Origin: Brachybacterium equifaecis
GTDB lineage: Bacteria > Actinomycetota > Actinomycetes > Actinomycetales > Dermabacteraceae
DNA: 64,000 bases
Assembly (NCBI RefSeq): GCF_023509525.1
Contig: NZ_JAKNCJ010000001.1
Coordinates: 124,001-188,000 of the forward strand
Reading direction: 5' to 3'
Below are positions 496 to 60,420 of this stretch, one piece after another. Numbering within the stretch: position 1 is the stretch's first letter; each line of letters opens with the position of its first letter. The translations under genes and the position numbers were made by a program. The notes under the pieces were generated by a model. It worked only from the letters and a program-made list of their open reading frames with translations, was not told the DNA's origin and ran no database searches.

Positions 496-2211
496 ATGAC
501 CCGCACTGCATCGTCCCCCTCCCCCGCTCCCGGCCAGCCTGCGGCCGGCAGCGGCGAGCCCCATGGCCAGGAGTGGTGGCGCGACGCCGTCGTCTACCAG
601 GTCTACCCCCGCTCCTTCGCGGACTCCGACGGCGACGGCATGGGCGACCTGCCCGGCGTCATCGCGCGCCTGCCCTACCTGAAGGACCTCGGCGTGGACG
701 CCGTGTGGCTCTCGCCGTTCTACACCTCGCCGCAGAACGACGGCGGCTACGACGTGGCCGACTACCTCGATGTCGATCCTCGCTTCGGCACCCTCGCCGA
801 CGCCGACGCGCTCATCGCCCGCGCCCATGAGCTCGGCCTGAAGGTGCTGGTGGACATCGTCCCGAACCACTCCTCGAGCGAGCATGTGCTGTTCCAGGAG
901 GCGCTCGCGGCCGGCCCCGGCTCCCCCGAGCGCGACATGTACATCTTCCGCGACGGCAAGGGCGCCGGCGGCGAGCTGCCCCCGAACAACTGGACCTCGA
1001 TCTTCCACGGCAAGGGCTGGACCCGCATCACGGAGGCCGACGGCACCCCGGGGCAGTGGTACCTCCACATCTTCGACACCACCCAGCCCGACTGGAACTG
1101 GGAGAACCCGAAGGTGCAGGAGCTCTTCGACGGCGTGCTGCGCTTCTGGCTGGACCGCGGGGCCGACGGCTTCCGCGTGGACGTCGCGCACGGCATGGCC
1201 AAGCCCGAGGGGCTGCCGGACGCCGAGGTCAACGCCGAGGGTCTGATCGACATCCCCGAGGGCGATACCCCCATCTACTTCGACAACGACGCCGTGCTGG
1301 ACATCTACCGCCGCTGGCGCCCGATCCTCGACTCCTACGAGGGCGATCGCATGATGGTGCTCGAGGCGTGGATCCCTGAGCACCGCCTGCCGCACTACAT
1401 CGGCCGCGACGTCGCCCACCAGTCGTTCAACTTCGGGTTCCTGCAGGCGCGCTGGGGCGTGGACGCCATGCGGGCCGCGATCGAGAAGCCTCTCGCCCTC
1501 GCGGACGCCGTCGACGCGCCGACCACCTGGGTGCTCTCCAACCACGACGTGATCCGCCACGCCACGCGCTACGGCTTCCCGCCGGAGCACCGCTTCGGCG
1601 AGGGCCTCAGACGCGAGGAGGTGCCGGACGTCGAGCTCGGTCTGCGCCGCGCTCGCGCCGCGACCCTGCTGATGCTGGCCCTGCCCGGCTCCGCCTACCT
1701 CTACCAGGGAGAGGAACTGGGCCTGCCCGAGGTGGCGGACATCCCCGACGAGCTGCGCGAGGACCCGTCGTTCCTGCGCGGCGGCGGCCCCGGCCGCGAC
1801 GGCTGCCGTGTGCCTCTGCCCTGGGAGCAGGACGCCCCCGCGTTCGGCTTCTCCCCCTCGGGGAAGAGCTGGCTGCCGCAGCCGGAGGTCTTCGGCGCGC
1901 TCGCGGAGGACGCCCAGCGCGGCGTCGAGGGCTCGACCCTGGAGCTCTACCGGAGCGCTCTGCACCTGCGCCGCGAGCTGGGCCTCGGCCGCCACGCCGA
2001 GGGCATCGAGTTCGTGGAGGACGTCCCCGAGGGGATCCTGGCGCTGCGCCACGCCGGCGTCGTGGTCGTGGTGAACACCACCGATCAGGACGTCCCGCTC
2101 GCCGGGCTCGGCCTGGGTGCAGACCTGCGCGTGCTGGTGGCCTCTGCCGAGGGCGAGGGAGCCGTGCCGGCGGAGTCCACGATCTGGCTCCAGAGCCCCT
2201 CCCGCGCCTGA
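496..2211 (+). CDS. GH13 alpha-glucosidase / oligo-1,6-glucosidase-like enzyme
   Basis: A 571-residue cytoplasmic glycoside hydrolase of family 13, predicted to release glucose from maltose-type oligosaccharides by a retaining mechanism. All conserved regions are visible: VDIVPNH near residues 119-125, GFRVDV with the nucleophile Asp229, VLEAW with the acid/base Glu290, and LSNHD with the transition-state Asp351. The TIM barrel starts at WWRDAVVYQVYPRSF near residue 27, after a low-complexity Ala/Pro/Ser lead. There is no signal peptide. The ATG is preceded by GAGAGG at good spacing. The neighbouring sugar ABC permease fits a transport-plus-hydrolysis cluster. Oligo-1,6-glucosidase, alpha-glucosidase or a trehalose-related activity cannot be told apart from motifs alone. 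Confidence 0.9.
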   Translation: MTRTASSPSPAPGQPAAGSGEPHGQEWWRDAVVYQVYPRSFADSDGDGMGDLPGVIARLPYLKDLGVDAVWLSPFYTSPQNDGGYDVADYLDVDPRFGTLADADALIARAHELGLKVLVDIVPNHSSSEHVLFQEALAAGPGSPERDMYIFRDGKGAGGELPPNNWTSIFHGKGWTRITEADGTPGQWYLHIFDTTQPDWNWENPKVQELFDGVLRFWLDRGADGFRVDVAHGMAKPEGLPDAEVNAEGLIDIPEGDTPIYFDNDAVLDIYRRWRPILDSYEGDRMMVLEAWIPEHRLPHYIGRDVAHQSFNFGFLQARWGVDAMRAAIEKPLALADAVDAPTTWVLSNHDVIRHATRYGFPPEHRFGEGLRREEVPDVELGLRRARAATLLMLALPGSAYLYQGEELGLPEVADIPDELREDPSFLRGGGPGRDGCRVPLPWEQDAPAFGFSPSGKSWLPQPEVFGALAEDAQRGVEGSTLELYRSALHLRRELGLGRHAEGIEFVEDVPEGILALRHAGVVVVVNTTDQDVPLAGLGLGADLRVLVASAEGEGAVPAESTIWLQSPSRA

Positions 2212-2221
2212 GCCCAGCCGA

Positions 2222-2227
2222 TAGAGT
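2222..2227 (+). promoter_or_regulatory. Candidate -10 box for the first ATP-grasp gene
   Basis: TAGAGT lies ten bases after the alpha-glucosidase stop and 39 bases before the ATG at 2267, with a GAAGAGGA ribosome-binding site in between. It suggests that the ligase is not simply the last gene of the sugar operon. No clear -35 box is seen. Confidence 0.35.
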
Positions 2228-2266
2228 GACGCCGCCCTCCGCCCCCTCCGCTTTGAAGAGGACACG

Positions 2267-3514
2267 ATGAACACCACCGAGCACAGTCCCGACTCCCCCT
2301 TCGACGTCGTCATCCTCGGCGCCGGCCTGGGCATCTACGCTCTGACCCGGGCATTTCACGAGGAGTACGGGGTGGTCTCCACGGTCGTCTCCGTGAACCC
2401 TCCGGAGCCGATGCGGCGCTCGATCACCTGCACCCCCCATGTGCTCCCCGAGAGCACCGAGGAGGCCCGGCTCGAGGCGCTGCGCGAGCTCGCCGCCGCC
2501 CGGCCCGCGGACCGGTCGGCCCTGCTGCTGTGCAACAGCGATGGGGACGTCGAGTTCATCGCGCGCAACGTCGAGGAGCTCTCGGCGCTGTACACGTTCC
2601 GGTTCCCGGACCACGCGACCGTCGAGGAGCTCTCGGACAAGGCCGAGTTCGCCCGGATCTGCACCGAGCACGGCATTGCGACCCCCGCCACGGAGATCCT
2701 CGACTTCCGCGGCGGGCAGCGCCCCTCCCTGCCCGAGCTCCCCTTCGACTATCCGGTCGTCGCGAAGCCCGCGCAGTCCCACCCGCACCGCATCATCTCG
2801 ATGCCGGGCAAGCAGAAGATCTACTTCCTCTCCTCCCCTGCCGAGCTCGATGACCTGATCGCCCGCCTGCACGGGGCCGGATTCGAGAACCGCTTCGTCG
2901 TGCAGGAGCTCATCCCCGGCGACGACACCTCGATGCGGTCGATCACCGCCTACCGGGATGGAACGGGCATGGTGACGCTCATGTGCGGCGCGCAGGTGCT
3001 GCTCGAGGAGCACACGCCTGATGCGCTGGGCCGCCCTGCCGCGATGATCACGATGGATCTGCCCGAGCAGTTCGCGCAGGCGCGGGCGATCCTCGAGGCA
3101 TCCGACTACCGCGGCTTCGCGAACTTCGACATCAAGGTGGACCCGCGGGACGGCTCGCAGCGCTTCCTCGAGGTCAACCCGCGCATGGGCCGGAACAACT
3201 ACTACGTCACCGGCGGCGGGGCGAACATCGCCCGCTTCCTCGTCGAGGACGCCCTGCACGGCCGCTCGATCGCGCCGGTCGTCGGCGTGCAGGAGATCCT
3301 GTACTCGATCCTCCCGCTCCCGCTGCTGCTGCGGTACGTGACCGATCCCGAGCGCCGGCGCTGGGTGCGCTCCGTCGCCCGCCGCGGCACCGTGAACCCC
3401 TGGGACTACCCGCGCGAAGGCCTGTGGATGCGCGCCTACGCGCGCGCGGTCGCTCTGAACCATGTGCGCAAGTTCCTCAAGCACTACCCGCGTCCGACCG
3501 AGACGGGGTTCTGA
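2267..3514 (+). CDS. ATP-grasp carboxylate-amine ligase, paralogue 1
   Basis: A 415-residue soluble protein with an N-terminal Rossmann-like segment (VVILGAGLGIYALTRAFHEEYG, residues ~13-34) followed by an ATP-grasp fold. Nucleotide-binding landmarks are KPAQSHPHRI (~165-175), VVQELIPGDD (~212-221) and the metal/ATP motif FLEVNPRMGRNNYYVTG around Glu302. It is clearly paralogous to the minus-strand gene at 4327-5664: the same blocks occur in the same order and both share NPR-GR-NYYVT. ATP-grasp ligases of this size join a carboxylate to an amine, for example D-aspartate to the peptidoglycan stem lysine in enterococci. With the neighbouring Asp/Glu racemase, a role in adding a D-acidic residue to the cell-wall bridge is plausible but not proven. 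It converges on the racemase gene. Confidence 0.8.
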   Translation: MNTTEHSPDSPFDVVILGAGLGIYALTRAFHEEYGVVSTVVSVNPPEPMRRSITCTPHVLPESTEEARLEALRELAAARPADRSALLLCNSDGDVEFIARNVEELSALYTFRFPDHATVEELSDKAEFARICTEHGIATPATEILDFRGGQRPSLPELPFDYPVVAKPAQSHPHRIISMPGKQKIYFLSSPAELDDLIARLHGAGFENRFVVQELIPGDDTSMRSITAYRDGTGMVTLMCGAQVLLEEHTPDALGRPAAMITMDLPEQFAQARAILEASDYRGFANFDIKVDPRDGSQRFLEVNPRMGRNNYYVTGGGANIARFLVEDALHGRSIAPVVGVQEILYSILPLPLLLRYVTDPERRRWVRSVARRGTVNPWDYPREGLWMRAYARAVALNHVRKFLKHYPRPTETGF

Positions 3515-3577
3515 GCACAGAATCTCGCGACCGAGCAGCCGCGCCTGAAGAATCCCGCCAGCCTTGCCGAGGGCTGA

Positions 3578-4330
3578 TCAGGTGAAGAGAGGGCTGAGCT
3601 CGCGCCCGGCGGCGGTGACCGTCGCCCGGGCGAGCTCGGTCAGCGAGTCCACCATGCGGGGGTCGGAGCGGTAGCCGTGCTGGTCGTACACGACCGAGAG
3701 CTCGGTGCACCCGAGCACCACCGTCCCCGCGCCGCGGGCGATCGCGATATCGACGGACTCGTCGAACAGCCGCAGGTCTACAGGCCGGCCGGCCTTGACC
3801 ATGTCGTAGATGATCCGGTTGACGTCGCCCTGGAGCGCCTCATCGGGAACCAATGCCTGGAGACCGGCGGCCTCGAGGGCGTCCTGATAGACACGCGCGC
3901 GGATGTTGCCCTCGGTCGCGAAGATCGCGACCGGGCGGTCGCCCGTGCGGCGGGCCGCCTCGCGGACGGTCGCCTCGACGATGCTGACGAAGGGGACGCT
4001 CGTGGCCGCTTCGACCTGCCGCGCATAGTGGTGAGCCGTGTTGCACGGCAGCACCAGCAGATCGACCCCGGCCCGCTCGAGCATCACCGCATCTCGCGCG
4101 ATGACCGGCCCCGGATCCGGCGCGCCGTGATCGAGGATTCCGCGAGTGCGATCGGGGGTGGAGGAGTGCTGGGAGACCAGCAGATCGAGATGCTCCTGGT
4201 CGCTGCCGGCGAGGGTCGCCCGCACGAGCACGTCGAGGAACACGGCGGTTGCCGCGGGGCCGAGCCCTCCGAGGACTCCGACGACGGGATGCGCCCAGTC
4301 CCCGGGGTGCAGGCGACCGCCCTGGCTCAC
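3578..4330 (-). CDS. Aspartate/glutamate racemase family protein
   Basis: A 250-residue cofactor-independent amino-acid racemase. Both catalytic cysteines are present: Cys96 in LPCNTAHH and Cys208 in VVLGCTELSVV, with GVLGGLGPAAT near residues 18-28. It should interconvert L- and D-aspartate or glutamate in the cytoplasm. I chose the GTG at 4330 because it overlaps the stop codon of the upstream ligase as GTGA (4330-4327), which means translational coupling. An in-frame extension further upstream would run through the ligase gene and is not credible. Coupling of a racemase with an ATP-grasp ligase strongly suggests that its D-product is the ligase substrate. Substrate preference (Asp or Glu) cannot be read from the sequence. 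Confidence 0.88.
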   Translation of the reverse strand: MSQGGRLHPGDWAHPVVGVLGGLGPAATAVFLDVLVRATLAGSDQEHLDLLVSQHSSTPDRTRGILDHGAPDPGPVIARDAVMLERAGVDLLVLPCNTAHHYARQVEAATSVPFVSIVEATVREAARRTGDRPVAIFATEGNIRARVYQDALEAAGLQALVPDEALQGDVNRIIYDMVKAGRPVDLRLFDESVDIAIARGAGTVVLGCTELSVVYDQHGYRSDPRMVDSLTELARATVTAAGRELSPLFT

Positions 4331-5664
4331 GAGGCGGAAGCCCTGCGGGACAGCTTCGCCTCGGCGCGGCAGACGCGGCCGACCGTGCGCGGGCGGTAGT
4401 AGCGCTGGAACTTGCGCACGTAGTTGACCATCGCCGCGACGATATACGCCCAGCGCTTGGGATCCTTCTCCACACCGCGGTAGATCAGCGGGTTCTTCAC
4501 CGCGCCCGCGGCGAGCACCCGGCGCAGCTGCGCCTTCGCATCGGGCAGCGTCGTGTAGCGCCGCACGAGCGCGACGGGCACGACCGTGTAGAGCACCTCG
4601 GGCTGGTCCTGGAGGATGCCGTCCTCGCCGATGCCCGAGCCCGGGCCGGCAGTCGGCAGGGCATCGCGCAGGTGCTCGTCGACGTACCAGGTCACGGGGT
4701 TGTGCCCCGCGGCGGTGACGTAGTAGTTCGAGCGGCCCAGGCGCGGGTTGAGCTCGAAGAACTTCGTGCGCCCGTCCCGGGGATCGAACTTGAGGTCGAA
4801 GTTCGCGTAGCCGGTCCAGCCGAGCGCGCTGCACAGGCGCTGCGCCTGTGCGACCACCTCGGGATCGACGCTCGAGATGATCGCGGCGGGATTGCCGATG
4901 GCCCCGGGTCCGTGCTCCTCCAGCAGAGTGCGGCCGTAGGAGGCGAAGCGCACTGTCGAGTCGCTGTCGCAGTAGCAGGTCAGGATGCGCATGTTCTGGT
5001 CATCGCCAGGAATGCGGTCCTGGACGATGATGCTCTGGCGATAGCCCGCCGATCGCACCGTGCGCAGCAGGCGCAGCAGCGCCGCGCGCGAGGGCACCGT
5101 GTGCACCTTGTTCTTGCCGGTGAAGCTGATGCGCTTCCACTCGGAGACCTCGGCGGGCTTGGCGATGACGGGGAAGGCGAAGGGGATGTCCAGGTCATCG
5201 GGAACCTCCTCGGCCAGATCGACCACGCGCGTGCGGGGATGGTCGATGCCCAGGCGCTCGCACAGCTCGGTGAAGTTCTGCTTCTCGGTCGCGGCGCGGA
5301 AGGTCGGCATGTCCACGTAGGGCACGATCCAGCGGTCGTCGAGCGCCGCGAGCTCGTCGCGCACCCGGATGATCGGCTTGACGGTCGCGTCGGCCGATCC
5401 CAGCAGGAGGAGCCTGCCCTCGGGGACGCGCTCGGCGACTGCGAGCAGCGCCGGGGCGAGCTTCTCGGCATCGAAGGGATCTGCGCACGGGACGTTCTCG
5501 ATGAACGCCGACCGGCTGATGACCCAGCCCTGCAGGCGCGAGACCACCACGGTGGAGATCCCGTAGGCCTCGTGGAAGGCGCGAGCCAGGGAGTAGGCCC
5601 CGATGTCCCCGCCGACGACGACGGGGGTGAACGCTGGCGCAGCGGCGAGGGGAGATCGAACCAT
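4327..5664 (-). CDS. ATP-grasp carboxylate-amine ligase, paralogue 2
   Basis: A 445-residue paralogue of the ligase at 2267. The same order of blocks is seen: VVVGGDIGAYSLARAFHEAYG near the N-terminus, KPAEVSEWKRISFTGKNK, IVQDRIPGDDQNMR and FFELNPRLGRSNYYVT. The start MVRSPLAAAPAF is chosen because an earlier in-frame methionine would need translation through the divergent promoter of the PEBP gene. It is the first gene of a two-gene operon, and its TGA overlaps the GTG of the racemase. The likely reaction is ATP-dependent condensation of an amino acid carboxylate with an amine. Together with the racemase this looks like a module that makes a D-acidic residue and attaches it. The exact acceptor is unknown. 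Confidence 0.8.
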   Translation of the reverse strand: MVRSPLAAAPAFTPVVVGGDIGAYSLARAFHEAYGISTVVVSRLQGWVISRSAFIENVPCADPFDAEKLAPALLAVAERVPEGRLLLLGSADATVKPIIRVRDELAALDDRWIVPYVDMPTFRAATEKQNFTELCERLGIDHPRTRVVDLAEEVPDDLDIPFAFPVIAKPAEVSEWKRISFTGKNKVHTVPSRAALLRLLRTVRSAGYRQSIIVQDRIPGDDQNMRILTCYCDSDSTVRFASYGRTLLEEHGPGAIGNPAAIISSVDPEVVAQAQRLCSALGWTGYANFDLKFDPRDGRTKFFELNPRLGRSNYYVTAAGHNPVTWYVDEHLRDALPTAGPGSGIGEDGILQDQPEVLYTVVPVALVRRYTTLPDAKAQLRRVLAAGAVKNPLIYRGVEKDPKRWAYIVAAMVNYVRKFQRYYRPRTVGRVCRAEAKLSRRASAS

Positions 5665-5724
5665 GCGCGCCAGTGTATCGAGGGTCCTGGGCCGTCCATG
5701 GGAGCGCTCGCCCGGGAGTTCCCC

Positions 5725-5730
5725 TAGCGT
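5725..5730 (+). promoter_or_regulatory. -10 box of a probably leaderless PEBP-family gene
   Basis: TAGCGT ends seven bases before the ATG at 5738, so transcription would start at or next to the start codon. The same arrangement recurs upstream of many genes in this window. The 73-base divergent gap also has to hold the promoter of the ligase-racemase operon. Confidence 0.5.
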
Positions 5731-5737
5731 GGGACGC

Positions 5738-6268
5738 ATGAACCAGAGCGCACCCCAGAACGGACCCTCAGTCCTCGCAGACGCGAGCTCGCCGGCCGTC
5801 TTCGCCCTCAGCTCCGATGCGGCGCCCGACGGCTCGATCCTCGAGCACGCCCAGCTCTCGCCGGAGCAGGGCGGCCCCTCGCTCTCACCCGACCTGCGCT
5901 GGAGCGGTGCCCCGAAGGGCACCCGCAGCTTCGCCGTGACCTGCTACGACCCTGACGCCCCCACGGGCTCCGGCTTCTGGCACTGGATCGCGTGGGACAT
6001 CCCTGCCGACGCCTCGGGCCTGCCACCGGGAGCGGAGCGCGAGGCCTCCGGGATGCTCCAGGCCGTCAACGACTTCGGTCGCCCCGGCTACGACGGTCCG
6101 AACCCGCCGGAGGGTCCCGCGCACCGCTATGTCTTCACGGTCCACGCGCTCCCCGTCGAGACCCTCGGCATCGACCCGAGCGCGCCGCACGTGCAGGCGC
6201 GCTTCGCGATCGTCACCCAGCAGCTTGCGAGCGCCAGCATCACCGCGACGTACCGCGCCCCGGCGTGA
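5738..6268 (+). CDS. YbhB/YbcL family Raf kinase inhibitor-like (PEBP) protein
   Basis: A 176-residue protein of the bacterial PEBP family. Family landmarks are LSPDLRWSGAPKGTRSFAVTCYDPDAPTG (~48-75), the FWHWIAWDIP block, FGRPGYDGPNPPEGPAHRYVFTVHAL and a C-terminal ITATY strand. Members bind small anionic ligands in a pocket built from the DPDAP and GP-HRY motifs, but their bacterial function is largely undefined. There is no signal peptide. The ATG at 5738 is preferred over in-frame upstream codons because a TAGCGT box stands seven bases before it and no ribosome-binding site is seen, so a leaderless mRNA is likely. It is divergent from the ligase-racemase operon; no functional link is evident. 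Confidence 0.9.
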   Translation: MNQSAPQNGPSVLADASSPAVFALSSDAAPDGSILEHAQLSPEQGGPSLSPDLRWSGAPKGTRSFAVTCYDPDAPTGSGFWHWIAWDIPADASGLPPGAEREASGMLQAVNDFGRPGYDGPNPPEGPAHRYVFTVHALPVETLGIDPSAPHVQARFAIVTQQLASASITATYRAPA

Positions 6269-60273: not shown

Positions 60274-60290
60274 CCCATCCGACATCCACA

Positions 60291-60420
60291 GACAGGGGAG
60301 CACCGCTTCGGTGCTGAGAGTGCGCAGCTGCGCAGACCCTCGAACCTGATCCGGTTCATACCGGCGTAGGGAGTCGGGATTTCTTCCGCGCGCGGGCCGT
60401 CCCGGTCCCGTGCGCGGCCC
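60291..60420 (+). promoter_or_regulatory. TPP riboswitch (THI element) with expression platform
   Basis: The aptamer runs from GGGGAGCACC (60295) through CTGAGAGTG, GACCCTCGAACCTGATC, CGGTTCATACCGGCGTAGGGA to about 60375. These are the conserved elements of the thiamine pyrophosphate riboswitch in order. After it, GGGCCG (60394-60399) can pair with CGGCCC (60415-60420) followed by CTTCC, a possible terminator or masking helix. The ykoE start codon is 25 bases further on. TPP binding should switch off the transport genes. Confidence 0.95.

Follow-up and report, generated by a model that had tools for sequence, protein, structure and literature searches.

What does the chromosome of Brachybacterium equifaecis JHP9 encode where two related ATP-grasp ligases, lig1 and lig2, converge on a racemase of the aspartate/glutamate superfamily? 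The three genes lie in the window, by which we mean the whole stretch of 64,000 nucleotides analyzed here. The original prediction took them as candidates for the enzymes of a D-acidic peptidoglycan cross-bridge, with one ligase for each bridge residue. Peptidoglycan A4 types have been in use in actinobacterial taxonomy for decades. Judged from sequence, the three genes probably form a cassette that builds the D-acidic interpeptide bridge in A4gamma peptidoglycan; it would consist of a D-aspartate (D-Asp) arm, lig2 and the racemase, and of a D-glutamate (D-Glu) ligase, lig1. A role of the ligase family in D-acidic cross-bridges is well supported by the comparison of genomes with published wall chemistry; from the same material we infer the substrates, the order of addition and the assignment of one residue to each enzyme. 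The racemase would turn L-Asp into D-Asp, which lig2 would activate with ATP to an acyl phosphate and then attach to the cytoplasmic wall precursor at an amino group. The same reaction would be carried out by lig1 with D-Glu, already supplied by MurI, so that the two ligases would together make a bridge of two residues, D-Asp and D-Glu, attached to meso-diaminopimelate (meso-DAP).

Two gene sets at one chromosomal place

Ligase matches were found in all 36 Brachybacterium genomes in a search of 58 relatives. A close racemase (E <1e-90) is present in 14 of the 36, and these are exactly the genomes whose top match to lig2 reaches an identity of at least 73%. The locus was examined in 33 of the 35 other genomes of the genus (13 with the close racemase and 20 without it), the remaining two being fragmentary assemblies; in one genome (G023) lig1 is broken in its assembly. 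All 20 examined loci without a close racemase hold a tandem pair of genes, each of which resembles lig1 (46-53%) more than lig2. The flanks are common to the racemase-type and the tandem-type loci, and therefore two alternative gene sets occupy one chromosomal place. In the tandem-type sister species, where a second lig1-type gene would replace the racemase-lig2 pair at this site, a D-Glu-D-Glu bridge is predicted.

The two types are also found outside the genus, Devriesea agamarum and Dermabacter vaginalis having lig1, lig2 and the racemase and Helcobacillus being of the tandem type. In D. vaginalis (L249, L250) lig1 is distant from the lig2-racemase pair on the same chromosome. Two overlapping lig1-type genes, with no racemase match, were seen in Isoptericola cucumis and Xylanimonas oleitrophica (L111 4631-7227, L114 4634-7227). 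Compared with X. cellulosilytica, which has lig1, lig2 and the racemase, these two species may represent another instance of the swap.

Genotype and published cross-bridge chemistry

Genotype and bridge agree in 11 of the 14 strains with wall data (Table 1), wall compositions being taken throughout from published descriptions. A one-sided Fisher test gives 0.051 on the 14 strains and 0.008 without the two bare amino-acid lists of PMC10581053, an exclusion made post hoc on strains that are not independent.

Table 1. Published wall data and genotype at the ligase locus in 14 strains
Strain	Published wall or bridge	Genotype	Outcome	Genome length (bases)
B. avium VR2415	Asp in wall	racemase type	agree	3,568,502
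B. vulturis VM2412	Ala, Glu, Gly, meso-DAP, no Asp (paper also covering B. avium)	tandem type	agree	3,796,663
B. faecium	meso-DAP, Ala, Glu	tandem type	agree	3,614,992
C. flavigena	D-Asp	lig2 and racemase, one ligase	agree	
X. cellulosilytica	L-Lys-D-Asp	lig1, lig2, racemase	agree	
S. keddieii	Lys-Ser-D-Glu	one ligase, no racemase	agree	
J. denitrificans	Lys-Ser-D-Glu	one ligase, no racemase	agree	
K. sedentarius	Lys-Glu2	one ligase, no racemase	agree	
A. subterranea	D-Ser-D-Glu, though some Asp in hydrolysate	one ligase, no racemase	agree	
A. bogoriensis (best-fitting genome)	L-Orn-D-Asp	lig2 and racemase	agree	
A. ferrariae (best-fitting genome)	L-Orn-D-Ser-D-Asp	racemase and third-clade ligase, not lig2	agree	
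A. carbonis T26 (best-fitting genome)	L-Orn-D-Glu	lig2 and racemase	disagree	
B. nesterenkovii	Asp listed (PMC10581053)	tandem type	disagree	
JHP9	meso-DAP, Ala, Glu major, no Asp (PMC10581053)	lig1, lig2, racemase	disagree	

Several observations weigh against the proposed cassette. The first are the three disagreeing strains, JHP9 itself among them, because of which an exceptionless rule tying the racemase to D-Asp was dropped. The JHP9 list, the only wall analysis found for this strain, comes from thin-layer chromatography and that of B. nesterenkovii was taken from earlier papers (PMC10581053), and such bare amino-acid lists may explain these two misses. To them must be added A. solisilvae (L-Orn-D-Ser-L-Asp), whose locus holds a lig1-type gene but lacks a racemase, the ligase counts of two strains, and racemases outside the cassette in tandem-type genomes, both considered below. 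A. solisilvae stands outside the 14-strain count, as do A. fermentans (L-Asp), Beutenbergia (L-Lys-L-Glu, with a divergent ligase), B. huguangmaarense (Asp listed), C. fimi, C. gilvus, Isoptericola variabilis and Pengzhenrongella, for which L-Orn-D-Glu is given from other species of the genus and where the P. frigida locus has a lig1-type gene.

The ligase counts concern K. sedentarius, with a single family ligase for Lys-Glu2, and X. cellulosilytica, with two ligases and the racemase for L-Lys-D-Asp. They weaken "two ligases, two residues" as a simple rule and would suit a bridge made by one ligase, possibly of two residues, with the other ligase redundant or decorating another carboxyl. We consider this rather unlikely, since Brachybacterium and Helcobacillus have kept the two tandem copies as distinct, supported groups, and only one ligase is present in each of C. 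flavigena, S. keddieii and J. denitrificans, whose bridges contain a single acidic residue. The core of the original prediction, an Asl-like ligase and an aspartate-type racemase at a locus for a D-acidic cross-bridge, is well supported by the agreement between genomes and walls, while its one ligase per residue is weakened by the counts in K. sedentarius and X. cellulosilytica.

The wall of JHP9, if truly without Asp, would fit a racemase that feeds D-Glu, or acts on cysteate, with both ligases adding D-Glu. A. carbonis, listed with L-Orn-D-Glu yet carrying lig2 and the racemase, points the same way, and so does the NCBIfam cysteate racemase model NF052483, which the cassette racemase passes (204 bits vs a cut-off of 190). 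This explanation is unlikely given that Asp accompanies the racemase-lig2 pair in B. avium, C. flavigena, X. cellulosilytica and A. bogoriensis, and that JHP9 has a separate MurI, which is the only other PF01177 match in its genome (TIGR00067 225 bits vs a cut-off of 147). The cysteate label is non-discriminating because relatives score around or above its cut-off: 185 for the racemase beside the Latilactobacillus curvatus ligase, 189 for B. avium and 246 for C. flavigena. We have therefore not used it. The cassette racemase passes PF01177 and TIGR00035 (171 bits vs a cut-off of 93), scores far under the MurI cut-offs and has as its closest PDB match 1jfl, an aspartate racemase. Both of its catalytic cysteines, which the original prediction had pointed out, were confirmed, and they are kept in all 54 collected racemases (some genomes are present twice).

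Weaker racemase matches (E 1e-11 to 2e-19) occur elsewhere in several tandem-type genomes. Six such places were tested in five Brachybacterium genomes (G010, G017, G026, G030 and G033), giving five aspartate-type racemases outside the cassette, one per genome (L296-L300), and one MurI (G033). The distant racemases score 198-254 bits with TIGR00035, and the nearest NCBIfam name is aspartate/glutamate racemase PRK10200, under its cut-off. A missing cassette racemase is therefore no proof of missing D-Asp. This amino acid may be available in some tandem-type species, and what they do lack is lig2 and its partner racemase.

Ligase clades and their distribution

A tree of 97 ligases, drawn from 73 of the 155 loci classified and thinned by hand, separates the ligases by their linkage to a racemase, defined as same strand and at most 300 bases. 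The racemase-linked ligases (24 of 25) and one unlinked long branch form one group with a support of 92, below the starred level, while 69 unlinked ligases form the other with a support of 89; three rows are more distant. The linkage label requires 3 changes on this tree against a mean of 22.3 when shuffled, and none of 500 shuffles was as low. None of the 69 lig1-side ligases is followed directly by a racemase gene on its own strand, and lig1 lacks the racemase linkage of AslA and Aslfm. A second tree left out 28 of the earlier loci, long-branch ligases among them, and took in other loci; with three lactobacillus ligases and a Subdoligranulum ligase as its root, it supports the lig2 side at 84 and the lig1 side at 98. 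We also observed a third, divergent ligase clade (L219, L220, L289, L295), 30-34% identical to lig1 and lig2 and located near a similar racemase, which was scored as unlinked because the orientation of its racemases is divergent.

In both trees the racemase-type lig1 groups with the first tandem gene, lig1a (a starred node), and the second, lig1b, stands apart. This grouping suggests that lig1 and lig1a probably both add a constant D-Glu; lig2 or lig1b would then add the variable residue. The lig1 genes go with D-Glu bridges, which is consistent with D-Glu being the probable substrate of lig1.

The two clades are set apart by nine alignment columns, among them lig1 N90/S225/T237/A242/M260/N310 vs lig2 S90/I227/R239/G244/I262/S312. 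The string SIRGIS is found in 47 of 51 racemase-linked ligases and NSTAMN in 171 of 190 unlinked ones (some genomes are present twice), and the C. flavigena ligase reads SIVGIS. At these columns the lactobacillus ligases have G244, I262 and S312 as in lig2, Asp328 as in lig1 and Lys at lig2 Arg239; in the remaining four they differ from both clades or are mixed. On balance we favor the view that the lig1 clade comprises D-glutamate cross-bridge ligases, an undescribed family whose sister group is the D-aspartate ligases. In this view the two kinds are swapped as cassettes at a fixed site, a handful of residues sets the substrate, and genomes across Dermabacteraceae, Cellulomonadaceae and relatives would reveal which A4 bridge type is made (D-Asp, D-Glu, D-Asp/D-Glu or D-Glu-D-Glu).

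Of 567 relatives found in a scan of named genomes the best 80 were taken further, and they span Dermabacteraceae, Cellulomonas, Actinotalea, Isoptericola, Sanguibacter, Kytococcus, Ornithinimicrobium, Actinomyces, Trueperella and others. In the family that holds Cellulomonas the ligase (E 1e-35) is present in 210 of 219 genomes and the racemase (E 1e-30) in 92. The 48 best lig2 matches from these 219 genomes (E <=1.7e-108) all have a racemase downstream on the same strand, the interval from one matched stretch to the other being -31 to 110 bases, so this arrangement is conserved well beyond chance. At the level of the order the ligase occurs in 200 of 396 genomes and 60 of 107 genera, and in another family in 83 of 186 genomes. 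Every A4-wall genus with wall data examined has the ligase family. A search with the cassette racemase at E 1e-8 gave no match in 29 of the 42 genomes chosen, a set that includes 6 of the racemase type, and only weak matches (E 7e-19 to 5e-9) in 7 more. No ligase match at E 1e-25 was found in Intrasporangium calvum (A3gamma with a glycine bridge), the sole A3gamma species checked.

Two genomes of another family (L255, L256) have tandem lig1-like and lig2-like ligases with no racemase within the 8.5 kb examined. A lig1-type ligase is also held by a Pseudoclavibacter genome (L143 6001-7254), a genus with a B-type wall.

This distribution bears on whether the ligases might act outside the wall, on a peptide, a cofactor or a capsule polymer. 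None of the flanking genes examined at the JHP9 locus is a known wall-precursor gene, as such a function would allow. It is nevertheless very improbable in view of the spread of the family through the Cellulomonas family and the order, the tracking of bridge chemistry by genotype, and the lactobacillus homologues, which adjoin an aspS-racemase pair or asnB (L. fermentum excepted).

The JHP9 locus and known cross-bridge systems

The locus (Table 2) lies in a genome of 3,082,019 bases in 23 contigs. The coordinates of the open reading frames bear out the originally described arrangement of paralogous ligases converging on a racemase, lig1 and lig2 being 37% identical over 428 columns (E 1e-77), and also the overlap of the racemase start with a ligase stop: the racemase GTG (4330-4328) shares the four bases GTGA with the lig2 TGA (4329-4327). 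This suggests translational coupling of lig2 and the racemase, both on the minus strand. Third-position GC is 0.94, 0.92 and 0.88 for the three frames. No sigma-70 promoter was found in 2150-5900, and the one terminator-like site in that range is located inside lig2; folding between the convergent genes was no better than in shuffles (z -0.29), giving no hairpin there. Flanks were counted at 34 loci besides the window, B. ginsengisoli included, and the glycosyltransferase gene that follows the phosphatidylethanolamine-binding-protein (PEBP) gene on the right is matched at all of them. A defence role for the three proteins was considered and rejected, PADLOC giving no match. Elsewhere in the window, a thiamine pyrophosphate (TPP) riboswitch (RF00059) lies at 60284-60389 on the plus strand (76.2 bits vs a gathering threshold of 54.3).

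Table 2. Features of the ligase-racemase locus, in window coordinates
Feature	Position	Strand	Remarks
Left flank, alpha-amylase-family gene	496-2211	+	matched at 29/34 Brachybacterium loci
lig1, ATP-grasp ligase, 415 aa	2267-3514	+	clade without linked racemase; predicted D-Glu cross-bridge ligase
Racemase, Asp/Glu superfamily, 250 aa, GTG start	3578-4330	-	Cys96 and Cys208; predicted aspartate racemase supplying D-Asp
GTGA overlap, lig2 stop / racemase start	4327-4330	-	4 bases
lig2, ATP-grasp ligase, 445 aa	4327-5664	-	racemase-linked clade; predicted D-Asp cross-bridge ligase, AslA-like
Right flank, PEBP-family gene	5738-6268	+	matched at 30/34 Brachybacterium loci

Neither ligase reached a Pfam family at E 0.001, and at a looser limit both touch ATP-grasp families, all below cut-off. 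A PDB search with lig1 as a single sequence gave no match, while alignment profiles matched the ATP-grasp domain of carbamoyl-phosphate synthase (E 4e-7 with lig1 first, 4e-6 with lig2 first). From these profiles lig1 and lig2 can be assigned, at the level of sequence, the fold of ATP-grasp carboxylate-amine ligases. Fem-type tRNA-dependent transferases also build interpeptide bridges; the enzymes here are of the ATP-grasp kind instead, and FemAB (PF02388) had no match in the JHP9 genome.

If the proposed cassette is right, bridge chemistry could be predicted from sequence and put to the test with two purified enzymes, and misreported wall types could be spotted. The make-up of the wall cross-bridge may then be readable from DNA. 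Furthermore, closely related ligases with substrates one methylene group apart would be a clean system for the study of ATP-grasp specificity. A literature search, confined in part to the top-ranked papers and with most subscription journals outside its coverage, came upon no enzyme described as building a D-Glu interpeptide bridge and none for the Brachybacterium bridge.

The closest known systems are Aslfm and AslA with RacD, from Enterococcus faecium and Lactococcus lactis. In a review (PMC4155827), AslA and racD of L. lactis are placed in one operon and D-Asp bridges are attributed to most lactobacilli. The likeness of lig2 to AslA/Aslfm rests on lactobacillus homologues, at 30% identity over about 95% of the length, the E. 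faecium and L. lactis sequences being outside the comparison. The ligases of L. curvatus, L. fermentum and L. crispatus, annotated as carboxylate--amine ligase or hypothetical protein, are homologous to lig2 in full length (about 30% identity over 94-97% of lig2, E <=1e-54; 27-31% in a separate comparison), and their function is predicted from their neighbors and from wall types. In L. curvatus the gene row is aspS, racemase and homologous ligase, in L. crispatus asnB precedes the ligase, and the annotation of L. fermentum shows no racemase next to the ligase. These loci have a single ligase each, unlike the JHP9 cassette. MurI belongs to the same superfamily as the cassette racemase and shares its two catalytic cysteines, though it is a separate gene in JHP9. 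The cassette differs from AslA/RacD in having two paralogous ligases, meso-DAP rather than Lys as acceptor and a racemase that is downstream and overlapping, and in belonging to an actinobacterial clade. Like AslA/RacD, it combines an ATP-grasp carboxylate-amine ligase with an adjoining aspartate-type racemase, and several species that carry lig2 have a D-Asp bridge; by analogy, the racemase-lig2 pair would work as RacD and AslA do.

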